Origin: Rubellimicrobium sp.
GTDB taxonomy: Bacteria; Pseudomonadota; Alphaproteobacteria; Rhodobacterales; Rhodobacteraceae
Direction: 5' to 3'
DNA: 64,000 bases
Assembly: GCA_019454835.1 (NCBI GenBank)
Contig: JACFNP010000013.1
Span: forward strand, 1-64,000
Under the pieces are notes generated by a model that was not told where the DNA came from, did no database searches, and saw only the letters and a program-made list of their open reading frames with translations. The translations under genes and the position numbers were made by a program. This document shows positions 9,626 through 16,718 of the stretch, piece after piece. Within the stretch, counting starts at the first letter, position 1, and the number at the start of each line of letters is the position of its first letter.

Positions 9626-10135
9626 TCATCCAAACAGCGCTGCAATATCGGACATCGGGCGGAACAGCTTCATCGGCTGGTCCGGAAACGGCAGGAAGCT
9701 CTCGCGCTCATAGAAGCACCTCGCATTTGCGTCCTGGGCGTCCACGATCACCGCAAAGGACGCAATCTCGCTGCGGACTGCCCGGAAGAGCGCATCCGCG
9801 AGCAGGAATCGACCGTAACCTTTCCCCTGAAACCGCCGATCGACGGCAAGACGGCCGAGCAGGGTCGCGGGGATCAGCGGATAACGCGGCAGCTTGCGAA
9901 TCACGCCACCCGGCAGCTCTGCAAGCCGCACCGCCGTCGACGAGAGCGTATGATATCCGGCGATGCTGCCATCCGTCAGCACAAGGACGAACGGTGCCGC
10001 CGTTCTCTTTCTGGCATCCTGTCCAGCCTGAATCCGGAAGTATCGGTCGAGCGGCTCCACACCGCTATTGAACCCCGAGCGGTCGTGCTGCGGGCCGAGA
10101 ACCTCGACCCGCAAGATGTCGTCTGCCTCTCCCAC
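9626..10135 (-). CDS. tacT: GNAT-family toxin (TacT/AtaT-like acetyltransferase)
   Basis: 169-residue N-acetyltransferase with the acetyl-CoA pyrophosphate loop RFQGKGYG at residues 101-108 and catalytic-type Tyr142 in ARCFYER. The N-terminal FNSGVEPLDRYF and IAGYHTLSS are typical of toxins paired with DUF1778 antitoxins; characterised members acetylate the amino acid on charged tRNAs and stop translation. It starts at GTG 10135, four bases after the antitoxin stop codon. GGAGAGG inside the first codons could instead serve a TTG start seven codons later, so the N-terminus is uncertain. Part of a two-gene operon with the antitoxin first. Confidence 0.88.
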   Translation of the reverse strand: MGEADDILRVEVLGPQHDRSGFNSGVEPLDRYFRIQAGQDARKRTAAPFVLVLTDGSIAGYHTLSSTAVRLAELPGGVIRKLPRYPLIPATLLGRLAVDRRFQGKGYGRFLLADALFRAVRSEIASFAVIVDAQDANARCFYERESFLPFPDQPMKLFRPMSDIAALFG

Positions 10136-10138
10136 GTG

Positions 10139-10441
10139 TCAGACGCCCGTTTTCTCGCGGTAGCGGCGGATGGTGTCGTGCAGGCGCTCATTGACCGGCT
10201 GCGGTTCGAGCAGAGCCCGGACGAACGCCTGGCTGTCGCGCACCGAAAGCTCCAGATGCTGATGCTCCTCGATGGCCCGCCGCGCCGCATCCTGCAGGCT
10301 CGCCAGAACGAAATCCGTCACGGAGCGGCCCTGCAGGGCAGCGGCGTGTTCGATCAGGCGCTTCTGGTCAGCGGTCACGCGCGCCTCAAGGCGTTCCCCT
10401 CGGACACGGCTGGTAGTGGGCCTCTTTGCGGCTTCGGCCAT
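10139..10441 (-). CDS. tacA: DUF1778 ribbon-helix-helix antitoxin (TacA-like)
   Basis: 100 residues. The first half is the DUF1778 ribbon-helix-helix DNA-binding region (RLEARVTADQKRLIEHAAALQGRSVTDFVLAS); the charged C-terminal half would wrap the GNAT toxin. GGAGA lies seven bases before the ATG. Antitoxins of this family neutralise the toxin and, with it, repress their own promoter. An inverted repeat at 10473-10485, about 30 bases upstream of the start, is the obvious candidate operator. Confidence 0.9.
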   Translation of the reverse strand: MAEAAKRPTTSRVRGERLEARVTADQKRLIEHAAALQGRSVTDFVLASLQDAARRAIEEHQHLELSVRDSQAFVRALLEPQPVNERLHDTIRRYREKTGV

Positions 10442-10609: not shown

Positions 10610-11674
10610 TCATGCACCCGCCTTCCGGTTCGCTTCCAGCCAGCGCTCGACCCCCGCGATCACGGCGGCGGCCTGTGGTGACAGGTTGCCCCGCGCCAGC
10701 GCGCGCGGCAGGAGGTCGGCGCGCTCCACCTGCAAGGCGCCTGCGGCCAGCGCGCGGGCGACGGCGGCGGGCAGGGTCAGGGCGCGGGCCGCTTCGGCGT
10801 AGCGGTCGAACGGCACCAGCAGGCCGGGCGGGGTGCCGGTGGCGCGCAGGATCGCGCAGGTCTCGTCATAGATCGCGCGGCTGGCGGCGGGGTCGCGCCA
10901 GACGGCCTCGGCAATCGGGATCGCGCCGGTCTTGGTGATCGAGCGGTAGTTGCCCGCCATCAGCATCGGCAGCTTCACCAGCGGCAGAAACGGCGAGTCT
11001 CCGGCGATCAGCCGCACCGGGACCGGCACCTCCTGCCCCGCGACGGTGGCGCGCGTCGCGGCGATGTCGGCGGCAAGGCGATCAAGCGCCGCCTGCGCCT
11101 GCGGATCGCCCAGCGGTGCGCATTTGATGTTGCTTGCCAGCGTCACCCGCAGCGCGTTGGGGCGCGCCGGGTCGGGGCGGACGGCCTGGGCGTCGGGACT
11201 CGCCGCGCTCAGCGGCAGGGGGCGCAGCAGGTGCCAGGTCCCGGCGGCCGCATGGATGCCGCCGAAATCGACCCCGGAAAACGCCGCGATCCGTTCGAGA
11301 CAGGCCAGCGGCGCGAGGTTCATCAGCGCCACCACCGGCAGGCGGGCCTCGGCGATCCGGGCGATCAATGCCGCGATCGCGGGCGCGGCGGCCTGCGGTT
11401 CCTGCACGACGAGAAAGCACAGATCGTGGCCCGCCACCCGCGCCTGCGGCGGCGTGGCAAGCTGCAGGTCGTGAGTGTCGGGGCCAAGGCGGAACGGATG
11501 CCGCAGGCCGAGGTGGCGGAACGGCATGTCGATGGTCAGCCCCTCGCGGGTGATGGCGTCGCATTCCGCCGCATGACCGACCAGCGTGACCCGGTGCCCC
11601 GCCTGCAGGATGCGCGCGGCGATCAGGGCGCCGTAGCTTGCGCCGATCACGAGGCATGAGAGCGGCGCGCTCAT
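10610..11674 (-). CDS. Ketopantoate-reductase-like (ApbA/PanE fold) dehydrogenase
   Basis: 354 residues from ATG 11674. N-terminal dinucleotide-binding fold SCLVIGASYGALIAARILQAGHRVTLVGH, then AITREGLTI, the layout of ApbA/PanE reductases that convert 2-keto acids to 2-hydroxy acids. The helical C-terminal region (KLPMLMAGNYRSITKTGAIPIAEAVW) is not one I can match to a named enzyme. Last gene of the six-gene dlt-like operon, with its ATG overlapping the stop of the 51-residue gene by four bases, so it is translationally coupled. It could supply a hydroxy-acid substrate for the ligase of the same operon; that role is inference, and true ketopantoate reductase is unlikely in this setting. Confidence 0.6.
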   Translation of the reverse strand: MSAPLSCLVIGASYGALIAARILQAGHRVTLVGHAAECDAITREGLTIDMPFRHLGLRHPFRLGPDTHDLQLATPPQARVAGHDLCFLVVQEPQAAAPAIAALIARIAEARLPVVALMNLAPLACLERIAAFSGVDFGGIHAAAGTWHLLRPLPLSAASPDAQAVRPDPARPNALRVTLASNIKCAPLGDPQAQAALDRLAADIAATRATVAGQEVPVPVRLIAGDSPFLPLVKLPMLMAGNYRSITKTGAIPIAEAVWRDPAASRAIYDETCAILRATGTPPGLLVPFDRYAEAARALTLPAAVARALAAGALQVERADLLPRALARGNLSPQAAAVIAGVERWLEANRKAGA

Positions 11675-11826
11675 CCGCGCCTCGGGTCGATGTAGCGGAT
11701 CACCTCCTGATCGGCGCCGAGACTGACGACGATCAGCGCAAGCAGGATCGCATAGATGACGGCGACCAGCACCGAGGCGAGCCATTTCGGCATCCTTCTC
11801 TCCAGCACGCGCAGCAGCGGGGTCAT
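11671..11826 (-). CDS. 51-residue single-pass membrane protein, DltX-like in size and position
   Basis: Tiny gene nested between MBOAT and reductase genes by ATGA overlaps on both sides (start at 11826 overlaps the MBOAT stop; stop at 11671 overlaps the next ATG). The protein has a basic N-terminus (RVLERRMPKW), one membrane helix at about residues 16-36 (ASVLVAVIYAILLALIVVSL) and a short tail GADQEVIRYIDPRRG with Tyr45. In Gram-positive dlt operons a similar-size protein, DltX, partners the MBOAT DltB and carries a conserved C-terminal tyrosine motif thought to relay the acyl group. The resemblance here is in size, topology, position and the tail tyrosine; there is no strong residue-level homology. 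Confidence 0.6.
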   Translation of the reverse strand: MTPLLRVLERRMPKWLASVLVAVIYAILLALIVVSLGADQEVIRYIDPRRG

Positions 11827-12890
11827 GGCGCGCCTCCCCCGAGTGCCAGCGCCAGCACCGGCCCGGCCAGCGACAGCCAGCCGAGGATCAGCACCGGCGA
11901 CACGATCCCCCCGATCCGGCGCGGCAATGGCGGCCCGCGCCGCAGCACCAGATGCGACACCACGATCCCCGCCGCCTGCCAGACCGCCCAGAGCACGTAA
12001 TGCAGGCTGGTCTCGTGCCACAGGCCCATCGCCAGCATCGCCGCCGCGACCCCGGCCACCGGCGAACGCATGGCCACCGCGACCGGCTGATAGACATAGT
12101 CACGCACCCAGAACGACAGGCTCATGTGCCAGCGCAGCCAGAACCCGGCCAGATCGCGGGCGCGCCAAGGGTGGTCGAAATTCTCCTCGATCTTCAGCCC
12201 GGCCATGCGGGCGCTGCCGATGGCGACGGCGCTGAGTCCGGCGAAGACGAAGAACAGATAGACCCAGTCGCAGGCCGACAGCAGCCAGCGGGCCATGAAC
12301 GACGGCACCTCGATCACGCGCAGGGGTTCGCGCGCGATGTCGTCGAAGCGGGTGGCAAGGACGACGCACGAGGCAAGGCCCATCAGCACCCGCTCGGCCC
12401 CCGCCGCAAGGTCTTCGACGCCCGGACGGCGGCGACGCCATTCGCGCTGAAACTCGGGGAAACGGTGGATCGGCCCGGCGACCAGCACCGGCAGGAACAG
12501 GTTGTAGCGGGCGAGATCGGCCAGTGTCGGGGCCACCCCGCGCCCGCGCCACCAGTCGAACAGCACATGCAGGTTGCGCAGGGTGAAATAGGCCCCGCCC
12601 AGCCAGACGATCCCCGGCAGTTCGCGCAAACCCAGCAGCGCGGCCAGCGCGGCGGCGGTGACCAGCGCCACCGGCAGGTCGCGGTGCCCGCGCGTCTCGC
12701 CGCCACGCATCGCTGCCCAAGTCGCGGCGATCAGCGCCAGCAGCCACAGCAGCGCCAGCGGCGCCCAGACCGCAAGCGCCGCAGCGGCGGCAATCATTGA
12801 AAACCAGCGGGCGGGCCGGTCGGGCAGGACATGCAGCACCAGCCCGGTCGCCACCGAGGCAAGCGCGAAGATCAGCGCCAGATCATTCAT
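11823..12890 (-). CDS. MBOAT-family membrane O-acyltransferase (DltB/AlgI-like)
   Basis: 355 residues, predominantly membrane helices. Family marks: VLVAGPIHRFPEFQREW near residues 136-151, FWLRWHMSLSFWVRDYVY near 250-267, and the catalytic-type histidine His292 in MGLWHETSLHYVLWAVWQ. MBOAT proteins move an acyl group across or at the membrane onto an extracytoplasmic acceptor; DltB (teichoic acid D-alanylation) and AlgI (alginate acetylation) are the best-known relatives. Its start overlaps the end of the SGNH gene by 8 bases. It is shorter than AlgI (about 500 residues) and nearer to DltB (about 400). The neighbouring carrier-fused ligase suggests a carrier-bound thioester donor rather than acetyl-CoA. 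Confidence 0.85.
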   Translation of the reverse strand: MNDLALIFALASVATGLVLHVLPDRPARWFSMIAAAAALAVWAPLALLWLLALIAATWAAMRGGETRGHRDLPVALVTAAALAALLGLRELPGIVWLGGAYFTLRNLHVLFDWWRGRGVAPTLADLARYNLFLPVLVAGPIHRFPEFQREWRRRRPGVEDLAAGAERVLMGLASCVVLATRFDDIAREPLRVIEVPSFMARWLLSACDWVYLFFVFAGLSAVAIGSARMAGLKIEENFDHPWRARDLAGFWLRWHMSLSFWVRDYVYQPVAVAMRSPVAGVAAAMLAMGLWHETSLHYVLWAVWQAAGIVVSHLVLRRGPPLPRRIGGIVSPVLILGWLSLAGPVLALALGGGAP

Positions 12891-13707
12891 CGTGCCGCTC
12901 CAGCCAGGCGGCGAATTCCTGCACGAACCGCGCCCGCCCGGCGCGGTTCATGTGGCCGCCGGTGGTGAAACGGCCCGCCTCCCACCACGGCGCAGGCTGG
13001 AACAGCCCGGCCCCCATCTGCCCCGCGAGGGTGCGGGCATGGTCCTGCTCTTGCGCCCGGCGGTCACGATCCGACCGGGTCAGGACAAGATCGACACGCG
13101 GCGGATCGACCAGCACCAGCGCGCCGCCCCGCGCTGCCAGCACCTCGGCCAGCGCGCGCCAGCGGGCAAGGTCGGCCACCGGCAAAGGGTCGGGGGCCGG
13201 GATGCTGCGCGGTCCGACCGGGTCGTCGCGATCCACGAATTCGCTTTCGCGCCGCAGGTCGAGCAGGTCCGCGCCCTCGACATCGGCGACCGCGCGGGCC
13301 TCGTTGCGCAGATGGCGGCTGAAATCGAACAGCACCGAGGCGGGCCAGACGGCATCGGAACCGCCCGCCCGCAGCAGAGCTGCGGCCTCGACGAACAGGA
13401 AGCGGGTGTAGGGCGTCACCGCCTCGGCCATTATCAGCAGGTCGTGGCGGTCGGCGCCGTTGCGAAACAGGCGCTGCCAGTCGAGATCGGGCGTCTCCGG
13501 TCCGCCCGCGTTCACCGGCGGCACCGCCGCGCCGATCAGGGACGAGCCGATAAAGACCGCCTCCGGCCCCGACGCGGCCAGCGTGGCGGCCTCATGCCCC
13601 AGCGCCATGTCATCGTCGTTGCCCCGCGCGAACGGGGCCAGCATCGCGCCTGCCAGCAGGAAGGCCGCCGCCCAGATCGCCGCAAGGCGCAGGCCCGCGC
13701 GCACCAC
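12883..13707 (-). CDS. Membrane-anchored SGNH-type / DltD-like protein
   Basis: 274 residues starting at GTG 13707, one base after the ligase stop. A single N-terminal membrane anchor (about residues 5-25, LRLAAIWAAAFLLAGAML) leads to an exported domain. VFIGSSLIG puts a serine at residues 55-56 in the position of the SGNH nucleophile block, and GGHMNRAGRARF near the end (His252, Asn254) matches the final block of DltD/AlgX-type acyltransferases. The domain therefore probably accepts the acyl group outside the inner membrane and passes it to the final polymer, as DltD does. Divergence from named families is large; the assignment rests on anchor, motifs and operon. Confidence 0.65.
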   Translation of the reverse strand: MVRAGLRLAAIWAAAFLLAGAMLAPFARGNDDDMALGHEAATLAASGPEAVFIGSSLIGAAVPPVNAGGPETPDLDWQRLFRNGADRHDLLIMAEAVTPYTRFLFVEAAALLRAGGSDAVWPASVLFDFSRHLRNEARAVADVEGADLLDLRRESEFVDRDDPVGPRSIPAPDPLPVADLARWRALAEVLAARGGALVLVDPPRVDLVLTRSDRDRRAQEQDHARTLAGQMGAGLFQPAPWWEAGRFTTGGHMNRAGRARFVQEFAAWLERHDE

Positions 13708-13708
13708 C

Positions 13709-15475
13709 CTAACCGCCGCTGGCCGCCACCGCGCGGGCCAGATCGGCCAGACAGCGGATGTCGGCGGCGTGGCGCACCGGGATGCGGATGTCGAACGCCT
13801 CCTCGGTGGCCAGCAGCAGGTTCATGTGGGTGAAACTGTCCCAGCCCGCGACATCGCCGGTGCCGCTGCGCAGGGTCAGCGCCTCGGGCGCACAGCGGAA
13901 CACCCCGGCGGCAAGGGCAAGGATGCGCGCCTCGCGGGTGCCGGTCCCCGCAGGCAGGGCGGCAGCGCGCCTTGCGGCAAGTTCCGCAACCAGATCGCGG
14001 GTGCGCACCTTGCCCGACAGCCCGCGCGGGATCTGCGCCACCACCGCGATCAGGCGCGGCTGCTTCAGCCGTTCGAGCCAGCGGGCGGCATGCGCGGCCA
14101 GATCGACCTCGCTCACCTCGCCCGCCACTTCAACGGCGGTGGCGGTGATCTCGCCGAAATCGGCATCGGGCAGGCCGACGGTGGCCGAGGCGGTCACCTG
14201 CGGATGGCGCAGCATCGCCTCGTCGACCTCCTCGGGGCGGATCAGCAGGCCGCCCGACAGGATCACGGTCTTGAGCCGCCCGAGATAGTCGAAAGCCCCG
14301 TCACCCCGCACCCGCACGATGTCGCCGGTGCGAAACCAGCCGTCTGCGGTAAAGCTCTCGGCGGTGCGGGCGGGGTTCTGCCAGTAGCCGGGAAAGATGT
14401 TGGCGCCGCGCAACTGCAACTCGCCCGCACCGGGATCGAACCCGTCGAGCGGCGCTGCGCGTGCCTCGCAATCGACGGGACGGCCGAGGCTGCCGCGCGG
14501 GCCGGTATCGGGGCCACCACCGGCGTAGAGGGCGCAGGATACGGTTTCGGTCAGGCCGTATTCGTTGATCAGCCTGCGGCCAAAGCGTGTCTCGATCCGC
14601 GCCCAGAGGTCAGGGTCGAGAAAGGACGAAGACGACACAAGCCAGCGCAGCGCCGGTGCAGCGAAATAATCGTCATGCGCGGCATGGCGCTCGATCAACG
14701 CCCAGACGGTGGGCACGGTGAAGACATGGCTGCAGCCCTCGCGCTGCACCGTGTCGAGCCAGTGTTCGAGCCGGTCGAGCGCAAAGCCGCCCGCGCGGAT
14801 CAGGGTCGCCCCCGCGTATGAGTTCAGAAGCGGCCCCTGCACCAGCCCGTCGGCATGGGCAAGTGGCATGTCGTTGAAGAACCGCGACTCCGGCCCGACC
14901 CCCAGCACGCGGGCAAGCGTGGCAAGATTGGCGAGCACGTTGCCGCGCGTCAGCATCACCCCGGTCGGCGCCTGCGTCGTGCCCGAGGTGAAAAGCAGAT
15001 AGGCGGGGGCGGCCAGGTCTTCGGGCAAGGCGGGGTCTTCGGGCACCGGGTCATGCCCCGCGATGCGCCACGCCACCTGCGCCCTGCGCCAGCGCCGCGC
15101 GGCGGCGCGGGTGATCGAGAGGGCCGGACAGGGACAGTCCCAGCCCTCGGCCAGCCCCTCGTCCGCCAGCAGCAGCGCCGCGCCGGTGTCGCGGGCGATG
15201 GCGACCGCACGGGCGCCGGGCGTGTCGGCCTGCAGCAGCACCGGCACCAGCCCGTGCAGCAGCGCCCCCAGATGCAGCGAGATCGCGGCGAAATCGTCGC
15301 CGCTGACGATCACCACGCGGTCGCCCCCGGCCAGCCCGCGCAGCCGCCACAGCCCGCAGGCCTGCCGCACCGCCGCCGCCAGCGCCGCGCGGCTGTAGCG
15401 TGCCTCGGGCGTGACGAGAAATTCGCCCGAGGGCCGGGCAAGCACCGCCTGCCACCACCCGGCGAGGCTGCTCAC
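13709..15475 (-). CDS. Acyl/aminoacyl-adenylating ligase fused to a carrier-protein domain (DltA-DltC-like fusion)
   Basis: 588 residues from a GTG start that overlaps the stop of the acetyltransferase gene. Residues 1-500 form an adenylating enzyme: FTSGTTQAPTG at 162-172 (ATP loop), NEYGLTETVS at 304-313, GWFRTGD at 379-385, and the catalytic lysine Lys489 in GLSGKVRTRDL. Residues 515-588 form an acyl-carrier domain whose phosphopantetheine site is Ser547 in AGWDSFTHMNLLLATEEAF. It should activate a carboxylic acid as an adenylate and load it on its own carrier arm. In dlt operons these two steps use separate proteins. The substrate cannot be read from sequence: an amino acid, a hydroxy acid or a short fatty acid are all possible. 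Confidence 0.85.
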   Translation of the reverse strand: MSSLAGWWQAVLARPSGEFLVTPEARYSRAALAAAVRQACGLWRLRGLAGGDRVVIVSGDDFAAISLHLGALLHGLVPVLLQADTPGARAVAIARDTGAALLLADEGLAEGWDCPCPALSITRAAARRWRRAQVAWRIAGHDPVPEDPALPEDLAAPAYLLFTSGTTQAPTGVMLTRGNVLANLATLARVLGVGPESRFFNDMPLAHADGLVQGPLLNSYAGATLIRAGGFALDRLEHWLDTVQREGCSHVFTVPTVWALIERHAAHDDYFAAPALRWLVSSSSFLDPDLWARIETRFGRRLINEYGLTETVSCALYAGGGPDTGPRGSLGRPVDCEARAAPLDGFDPGAGELQLRGANIFPGYWQNPARTAESFTADGWFRTGDIVRVRGDGAFDYLGRLKTVILSGGLLIRPEEVDEAMLRHPQVTASATVGLPDADFGEITATAVEVAGEVSEVDLAAHAARWLERLKQPRLIAVVAQIPRGLSGKVRTRDLVAELAARRAAALPAGTGTREARILALAAGVFRCAPEALTLRSGTGDVAGWDSFTHMNLLLATEEAFDIRIPVRHAADIRCLADLARAVAASGG

Positions 15476-16140
15476 TCTGCACCCTCGATGTTCAGGGCCG
15501 AACGCGCCGGATCGAACACCCGCGCCCGCGCCGGGCTGCCCGCGACGAAGGCACCGTCGGGAACATCCTCGCGCACGAGCGATCCCGCCGCGATGATGCA
15601 GCCCGCGCCGATGCGCAGGTCGGGCAGGATCACCGCGCCCGCACCAATCATGCAGCCCGCGCCGACATGGATGTTGCCCGCAAGCACCGCCCCCGGCCCG
15701 ATGCTGGTGAAATCGCCGATCATCGCATGATGGCCGATGCTGGCGGCACGGTTCACCAGCACCCCCTGCCCGAGCAACGACAGCGCGCCGATGATGGCCC
15801 CGGCATTGACGAAGCTCGCCTCGCCCGCCCGCACCGAACGCGCGAGCACCGCATGCGGATCAACCAGCGCGGGCGCCGGGACCAGACCGAGCGCCCCCGC
15901 CTGCTCCGCCAGCGCCCGCCGCCGCGCGGGGGTGAAGGCGCAGGCCAGAAACGGCGCGGCCCCTTGCGGCGCAAACCGCGCGAGCTCGACCACCGGCGCG
16001 GGGTCCATCACCCTCGGCGCCCCCTCAACCGACACCGCCGCCGCAATGGCGATGCCGCAGCGGTGCAGGCTTTCCTCATACTCGACCACCAGCGGCGAGC
16101 GGATGCCGAAAAGCGTGACCGAATGTGGTTCCGATACCAT
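15472..16140 (-). CDS. NeuD/PglD-like left-handed beta-helix acetyltransferase
   Basis: 222 residues from ATG 16140. An N-terminal alpha/beta domain (VTLFGIRSPLVVEYEESL) is followed by hexapeptide-repeat coils (IGDFTSIGPGAVLAGNIHVGAG, then IGAGAVILPDLRIGAGCII) and the usual closing segment VREDVPDGAFVAGSPARARVF. His137 and His138 in ASIGHHAMIGDF fit the catalytic histidine of PglD/NeuD enzymes, which transfer acetyl from acetyl-CoA to an amino sugar. It is first in the dlt-like operon and overlaps the ligase gene (GTGA). It might acetylate the acceptor or the activated small molecule; in this operon either is speculative. Confidence 0.72.
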   Translation of the reverse strand: MVSEPHSVTLFGIRSPLVVEYEESLHRCGIAIAAAVSVEGAPRVMDPAPVVELARFAPQGAAPFLACAFTPARRRALAEQAGALGLVPAPALVDPHAVLARSVRAGEASFVNAGAIIGALSLLGQGVLVNRAASIGHHAMIGDFTSIGPGAVLAGNIHVGAGCMIGAGAVILPDLRIGAGCIIAAGSLVREDVPDGAFVAGSPARARVFDPARSALNIEGAE

Positions 16141-16253
16141 GTTTGCGTCCGCGCAGGCCGGTCGGGGAGGGTGATGCGTGGGGCCGACTGTAGAAAGCGC
16201 GGTCACGGCGGGCAAGGGGTTGGCGGCGGGGGGTTATCTGCGCGCGGCATGTT

Positions 16254-16350
16254 CCGTCATTGCGAGTTCCGTCATTGCGAACGAAGTGAAGCAACCCCGA
16301 CCGCTCATGCACAACATCGGGGTTGCTTCGGCTTCGCCTCGCAATGACGG
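16254..16350. repeat. Palindromic interspersed repeat, copy 3, with duplicated left end
   Basis: Full copy with the left terminal block present twice in tandem (ccgtcattgcgagtt followed by ccgtcattgcgaacg); the single right arm ends gcctcgcaatgacgg. It lies in the divergent gap between the acetyltransferase gene and dctP. The right flank continues into the conserved tail seen at copies 6 and 7 (gccgcgtcaacccgcgcagg, about 16384-16403). Confidence 0.9.
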
Positions 16351-16455
16351 GATTTGCATTGTCAGGGTTTGCGGGCGGCGGTGCCGCGTCAACCCGCGCA
16401 GGGCAAGTCGCCTGATCGCCCTGGCGGCGGGGGTGAGAGCGGCGCGCGGCATGTT

Positions 16456-16489
16456 CCGTCATTGCGAGGTGCAAGCCGAAGCAACCCCT
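16456..16489. repeat. Palindromic interspersed repeat, copy 4 (solo left arm)
   Basis: Only the left half is present: ccgtcattgcgaggtgcaag followed by ccgaagcaacccc; no matching right arm occurs in the next 200 bases. It is a decayed or truncated copy about 105 bases after copy 3, preceded by the same gcggcatgtt flank as other copies. Confidence 0.75.
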
Positions 16490-16718
16490 TCCAGAACATC
16501 CTCCAAGGCGCCGACGCGCGGGTGGCGGCAGATGCCCCCGGCGCACGGCGTGGCACTACGGATGCCGGACCTGTTGCGGCGGCGGCAGCGCCCGGATCGC
16601 GCGGGAATGCTGTTGCGGCGACCGCCAAGCAATCGTTGCGCGGCAGTATGGTTTGCCCTAGCGTAACCCTGCACGCCTTTTCGGACCTCATGACCGAGGC
16701 AACCGGAGGAGAGCATCC
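16490..16718. other. Upstream region of dctP; no gene seen
   Basis: Beyond the solo repeat arm I see no credible coding frame. The segment must hold the dctPQM promoter but no clear -35/-10 pair stands out. A strong ribosome-binding site (ggagga at 16705-16710) precedes the dctP ATG. Confidence 0.4.

Follow-up and report, generated by a model that had tools for sequence, protein, structure and literature searches.

Conserved genes for a ligase-carrier fusion, a tail-less DltB-like MBOAT and a small tyrosine protein suggest a carrier-dependent envelope acylation system in Rubellimicrobium sp.

The window analyzed here, a 64-kb stretch (64,000 nucleotides) from Rubellimicrobium sp., a member of the Rhodobacteraceae, carries an operon of six genes on the minus strand, spaced by -4, +1, -8, -4 and -4 bases according to the ORF coordinates (Table 1). 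All six reading frames are unbroken and tightly packed, and an earlier note on this DNA, which had described a translationally coupled set of six genes, proved accurate in both coordinates and spacing. Pfam assigns Hexapep to the NeuD-like protein (E-value 7.1e-16), MBOAT to the DltB-like protein (1.1e-19) and ApbA to the PanE-like protein (6.6e-5), while the ligase-carrier matches AMP-binding (1.2e-48), AMP-binding_C (1.6e-6) and PP-binding (1.9e-4). Pfam returned no family for the SGNH-like protein and no match over the cut-off for the 51-residue protein. Adjoining the operon, at 9626-10441, are genes for a TacA1-type antitoxin and a GNAT protein, which likely form a toxin-antitoxin pair. 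Upstream of the operon, at 16240-16560, words resembling GTCATTGCGA recur and were read by eye as possibly a dispersed repeat.

Table 1. Genes of the operon and features of their products (coordinates in the 64-kb window)
Product	Coordinates	Strand	Features
NeuD/PglD-like acetyltransferase	15472..16140	-	222 aa; left-handed beta-helix; GHH with aligned His kept
Ligase-carrier	13709..15475	-	588 aa; AMP-forming acid ligase with C-terminal phosphopantetheine carrier domain (GWDSF); A4 motif LAHADG
SGNH-like protein	12883..13707	-	274 aa; hydrophobic N-terminus; GSS (Ser56); His252; Thr249 replacing the block V Asp
DltB-like MBOAT	11823..12890	-	355 aa; His255 and His292; without C-terminal FxYxxF
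Small protein	11671..11826	-	51 aa; one strongly hydrophobic stretch; DltX-like layout; end ...IRYIDPRRG
PanE-like protein	10610..11674	-	354 aa; ketopantoate-reductase / D-mandelate-dehydrogenase fold

A search for the neighborhood of ligase-carrier, MBOAT and small protein, a check that the earlier note had put forward, found the block in six other loci. Together with the window, seven loci (the window, L018, L019, L020, L031, L032 and L034) encode the ligase-carrier, the SGNH-like protein, the MBOAT and the small protein in identical order. L018, from a Comamonadaceae MAG, and L019, from Alsobacter metallidurans, come from a pattern scan of genome contigs, which detects close relatives only. 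Profile searches contributed L031 and L032, from 385 genomes of the class, as well as L034, from 398 of the phylum. L020, a plasmid of Sulfitobacter pontiacus, is the sole close relative in the plasmid collection, where searches with the ligase and with the NeuD-like protein each matched one of 72,556 records. The ligase and the MBOAT have BLAST matches to those of the window in every one of the seven loci. In L020, L032 and L034 the SGNH-like protein had no such match to that of the window, nor did the small protein in L020 and L034; these were assigned by position and motif. A NeuD-like gene lies upstream of the four-gene block in six of the seven loci, the exception being L034, where a second AMP-binding protein stands in its place; a radical-SAM-like protein, named by eye, follows the operon there (L034:4246-10568). 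The PanE-like gene lies downstream of the block at two loci, the window and Sulfitobacter. The system is rare in the family of the window, with one positive genome among 394 at E <= 1e-50; that genome is the window's own, and the 393 others yielded no further member at this threshold. The recurrence of the four-gene block in seven loci, together with the small ORF described next, is more than chance would give.

In each of these loci an ORF of 49-54 residues begins at the MBOAT stop codon, with a 4-base overlap in six and after a 1-base gap in L034. All seven small proteins have a strongly hydrophobic stretch and a near-terminal Tyr-x-Asp, which is Tyr45-x-Asp47 in the window. When the region downstream of 45 other MBOATs was scanned, a small hydrophobic ORF with a near-terminal Tyr appeared once, and that one resembles a carrier protein. 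The scan covers the downstream side of the MBOAT only, and dlt-type loci, in which the DltX gene lies upstream of the MBOAT, score 0/3 for that reason. Chance as an explanation of the small ORF was rejected on this comparison (7/7 clade loci vs 1/45 other MBOAT loci). The DltX of B. thuringiensis is described as having the same layout and ending in FIYNEF (PMC5541007). The dlt-type FxYxxF was not found in the small proteins of the clade, whose motif is YxD; L034 alone comes near it (FIYWDN). As background, among 4431 small ORFs (25-60 aa) from all fetched loci, FxYxxF occurs in 16, overlapping loci being entered twice in this count.

The MBOAT of the window matches solved DltB (6bug) with a phmmer E-value of 4.1e-30, and in the alignment its His255 and His292 fall on His289 and His336 of that structure, which are reported to be key residues (PMC11035591). 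It scores 141.3 bits against the curated DltB model TIGR04091, under the 375-bit cut-off, which is a strict one, since 0 of 398 genomes of the phylum pass it, including those with dlt-type operons. In the relay as described, DltB hands D-Ala to the Tyr in the FxYxxF of DltX, and PatA-type MBOATs carry an FxYxxF-type motif on their own C-terminus (PMC12148441). An exact C-terminal FxYxxF is present in 39 of 45 other MBOATs of the window's phylum, or 41 with a relaxed first residue; the four misses kept in the count are L016, L044, L009, which is truncated where its contig stops, and L064, which is the L035 gene once more. In the alignment, none of the seven MBOATs of the window's clade has this tail. 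The seven form one branch (SH-aLRT 99) apart from three DltB of dlt-type operons, in a quick tree with SH-aLRT support only and a long-branch warning, from which L009, L016 and L064 were dropped.

The ligases depart from DltA at the residue that holds the substrate's amino group. In an alignment with three DltA (L072-L074), all seven clade ligases have LAH[AGNT]DG where the DltA have FSFDLS, and the amino-anchoring Asp of these DltA is missing at the aligned position. This Asp, D197 in DltA and D235 in GrsA, is described as the residue that binds the amino group; DhbE, an aryl-acid enzyme, does without it, and McyG has Val at this position, yet accepts L-Phe (PMC11253843). With their nearest solved relatives, the oxalyl- and malonyl-CoA ligases, the clade ligases align in an unambiguous register, His on His. 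They share 19-20% identity with the three DltA. The A10 lysine and the carrier serine (WDS) are retained in 7/7 ligases, the carrier is fused to the ligase, and a free-standing DltC is absent from the operon. A profile search of the PDB with alignment A4 gave zero matches at E <= 1e-60. With the amino-anchoring Asp absent from the aligned position and oxalyl- and malonyl-CoA ligases as the nearest relatives, D-alanine is probably not the donor. The earlier note's equation of the ligase with DltA is thus not borne out: judged from its motifs and relatives, the enzyme is probably not DltA-like, and the acid that it activates probably lacks a free alpha-amino group. Simple D-alanylation was rejected as first choice on the ligase motif.

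A true aminoacylation of LPS or another anionic envelope molecule, resembling D-alanylation and performed by a ligase with a divergent pocket, is the rival that survives best, although we regard it as unlikely. The set of functions is identical, and Gram-negative dlt operons exist; for those of Dickeya and Pectobacterium, aminoacylation of LPS or an anionic envelope molecule has been suggested (PMC5541007). The amino-anchoring Asp is dispensable in one known A domain (PMC11253843), and a one-residue register error relative to DltA is possible, because the clade ligases have an invariant Asp one residue past the aligned position (LAHADG). These points are offset by the contrast between LAH[AGNT]DG in 7/7 ligases and FSFDLS in all three DltA, by the nearest solved ligases, which use oxalate and malonate, by the identity of about 20% to these DltA, and by the separate MBOAT clade.

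The neighborhoods of the related loci were inspected by eye, with domain searches for two proteins. The Sulfitobacter plasmid operon lies near annotated glycosyltransferase and tviB genes and is flanked by two transposase genes; no polysaccharide genes were recognized beside the other six loci in this reading. Natural-product clusters often hold ligase-carrier fusions, hexapeptide transferases and reductases. An operon that makes or exports a small acylated product, such as a lipid or a secondary metabolite, would fit these frequent companions and flanks in which no polysaccharide genes were recognized at six of the seven loci. We nevertheless consider such a product improbable in place of the decoration of an envelope polymer, because the combination of MBOAT, SGNH protein and shuttle Tyr is the pattern described for transfer to extracytoplasmic polymers (PMC12148441), the operon is without further biosynthetic core genes, and one locus does sit among glycosyltransferase genes.

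The third protein of the operon is the most variable. Its model, built from an alignment of 6 rows, has low confidence (pLDDT 57), and Foldseek with this model returned no match under 0.001, the best being an esterase at 7.5e-3. The 50 structural neighbors listed by VIA-align for the same low-confidence model have Z from 8.5 to 6.7 and are by title mostly of the GDSL/SGNH type. Among them are PatB (8tlb; Z 7.5, rmsd 4.5, 143 aligned) and an acetyltransferase domain acting on Salmonella LPS (6se1; Z 7.4, rmsd 4.0, 155 aligned); for this model, Z near 8 may reflect a common arrangement. The weak model and its neighbors, with the GxS and His motifs, point to a putative SGNH fold. Ser56, in the GxS motif, and His252 are invariant in all seven proteins. 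An Asp precedes the His by three residues in five loci and by four in L032; Thr249 replaces this usual Asp in the window, which leaves the activity of the window copy uncertain. With a mean pairwise identity of 28% (6 loci), the SGNH-like protein is the least conserved of the set, whereas the NeuD-like protein is the best conserved (57%, 6 loci). This difference suggests a shared donor and acceptors that vary across loci. Decay or re-purposing of the window copy, with the last transfer left to another protein or to none, is the least probable rival: Thr249 at this one of seven loci, the weak conservation of the whole protein and the zero other members at E <= 1e-50 among the 393 genomes would fit it, but the six intact, tightly packed reading frames, the retained Ser56 and His252 and the intact motifs of ligase, carrier, MBOAT, small protein and NeuD-like protein argue against it.

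The two genes at the ends of the operon differ in standing. The NeuD-like protein scores 137.8 bits against TIGR03570, short of the cut-off of 160.8, and retains the hexapeptide repeats and the aligned His; the top-ranking solved relatives are a pilin glycosylation protein and perosamine N-acetyltransferase. The PanE-like protein passes the cut-off of PF02558 (ApbA N-terminal domain), with 23.0 bits against 22.2. Its model (pLDDT 88) matches ketopantoate reductases and D-mandelate dehydrogenases, with a Foldseek E-value of 1.4e-11 to 3hwr and, for 5ayv, Z 25.8 and rmsd 4.2 over 288 aligned residues. At E <= 1e-15, a search of 118 other genomes found relatives in 9. One of these relatives, in the same family (L092:5490-7763), lies upstream of an aminotransferase-like gene, with a pair of transporter genes close by, as read by eye. 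Because relatives are found in other genomes, one of them before an aminotransferase-like gene, the PanE-like protein may have been recruited to the operon, and we class it as accessory since it adjoins the operon in 2/7 loci only. A reductase as the general source of the donor was rejected for the same distribution. The acetyltransferase and the reductase had both been proposed as additions to a dlt-like core; the first, conserved in six of seven loci, has kept that place and the second has not.

Several known systems share parts of this design. Like Gram-positive dlt as described, the operon has a ligase, a carrier, a tail-less DltB-like MBOAT, a single-pass small protein with a C-terminal Tyr and a putative SGNH protein. 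It differs in that the carrier is fused to the ligase, the aligned amino-anchoring Asp is missing, the small-protein motif is YxD with its gene downstream of the MBOAT, and a NeuD-like gene is added, joined by a PanE-like gene in 2/7 loci. Gram-negative dlt operons are in print for Dickeya and Pectobacterium (cited in PMC5541007). In the window's phylum, L072-L076, typed as Gram-negative dlt by gene content, each have an ORF of 39-40 residues ending in FEYQ[QK]F, ORFs being listed for L072-L074. They share with the window a separate small DltX and a short MBOAT. Unlike the window, they have the order SGNH gene, DltX, DltB, DltA, DltC, with separate DltA (FSFDLS) and DltC; their DltB have Asn at the MBOAT His in the three aligned and fall on a branch distinct from the window clade. 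In MBOAT-SGNH O-acetylation of the PatAB type, as described, an MBOAT with an invariant His, an SGNH-type protein (putative in the window) and the logic of an acyl-Tyr shuttle are shared; the shuttle motif there lies on the MBOAT and the donor is acyl-CoA (shown for PatA), whereas the window has a separate protein and a carrier domain. AlgIJFX and WssHIFG are also named as O-acetylation systems of this kind (PMC12148441). Another locus of our set, L063, likewise holds a ligase, a carrier-like protein and an MBOAT together, but its ligase keeps FSFD and its MBOAT keeps FLYFQF, neither of which is present in the window. L063 thus has a dlt-like set with a fused shuttle, and its carrier-like protein, named by eye, comes directly after the MBOAT.

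We assign the operon to the MBOAT-SGNH-shuttle kind and do not call it a dlt operon, because it departs from dlt in the ligase Asp, the free carrier, FxYxxF and the DltB cut-off. Since Gram-negative dlt was already in print, the Gram-negative setting, which the earlier note had pointed out, is not itself new, and the operon is a variant; L072-L076 are similar cases. The dlt-like roles proposed for the ligase-carrier, MBOAT, small protein and SGNH-like protein are supported. Among the literature matches listed, judged from titles and abstract openings, no paper describes such an operon, in keeping with the suggestion of an uncharacterized envelope acylation pathway. The operon is real and conserved and, as far as the searches reach, uncharacterized, with an uncertain activity of the window copy (Thr249).

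With moderate confidence, and on the strength of gene order and motifs, we read the operon as a carrier-dependent, DltX-type envelope acylation system that would work in a dlt-like manner with a donor other than an amino acid. The ligase would adenylate a small carboxylic acid that has no free alpha-amino group and load it onto the carrier domain to which it is fused. From this carrier, the DltB-like MBOAT would pass the acyl group across the inner membrane to Tyr45 of the 51-residue protein, which would stand in for DltX and also for the fused FxYxxF tail that most of the other MBOATs examined possess. Ser56 of the SGNH-like protein would then accept the acyl group and transfer it to a glycan that is secreted or part of the envelope. 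Synthesis of the donor acid is probably aided by the NeuD-like acetyltransferase, acylation of an amino or hydroxy acid being one example. In the window and in Sulfitobacter, the PanE-type reductase may supply or alter the donor as a 2-hydroxy acid.

The chances seem evenly balanced for a broader proposal, that these loci represent a separate branch of envelope acylation. A non-amino acid, such as an N-acetylated amino acid or a D-2-hydroxy acid, would travel on a ligase-fused carrier to a tail-less MBOAT, from there to a Tyr-x-Asp small protein and finally to surface glycans, the acyl-Tyr relay existing in fused and split versions for chemically different donors. MBOAT-SGNH systems other than dlt are described as being without a carrier protein and without a DltX-like microprotein (PMC12148441). 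The window clade appears to possess the two, and its ligase does not look made for amino acids. The general idea of an acyl-Tyr relay can be tested here on a new donor and on a motif that has diverged, and the relay tail is found in fused and split forms within one phylum. Within the literature searched, judged from titles and abstract openings, this points to an envelope modification of undescribed chemistry.

Two further groups of loci came to light around these MBOATs. L033, L077 and L035 were found by MBOAT similarity and excluded from the seven because their gene content differs: they have a sulfotransferase-like gene, no NeuD-like match was obtained, and the small Tyr ORF was not found. 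Their MBOATs lack the FxYxxF tail, and none of the three has a small Tyr ORF beginning at its stop codon (0/3), which counts against the reading proposed here. These sister systems (L033:5023-10198, L077:6742-11916 and L035:8937-13899) comprise an SGNH-like protein, a ligase, a sulfotransferase-like protein (by eye) and a short MBOAT, and the ligases of L033 and L077 come with a carrier. In the second group, the DltB of L072:5841-6965, L073:6106-7227 and L074:5880-7001 have Asn (GAWNG) at the catalytic His position of the MBOAT alignment; the operons of these Asn-bearing DltB still have DltX, DltA, DltC and an SGNH-type gene.
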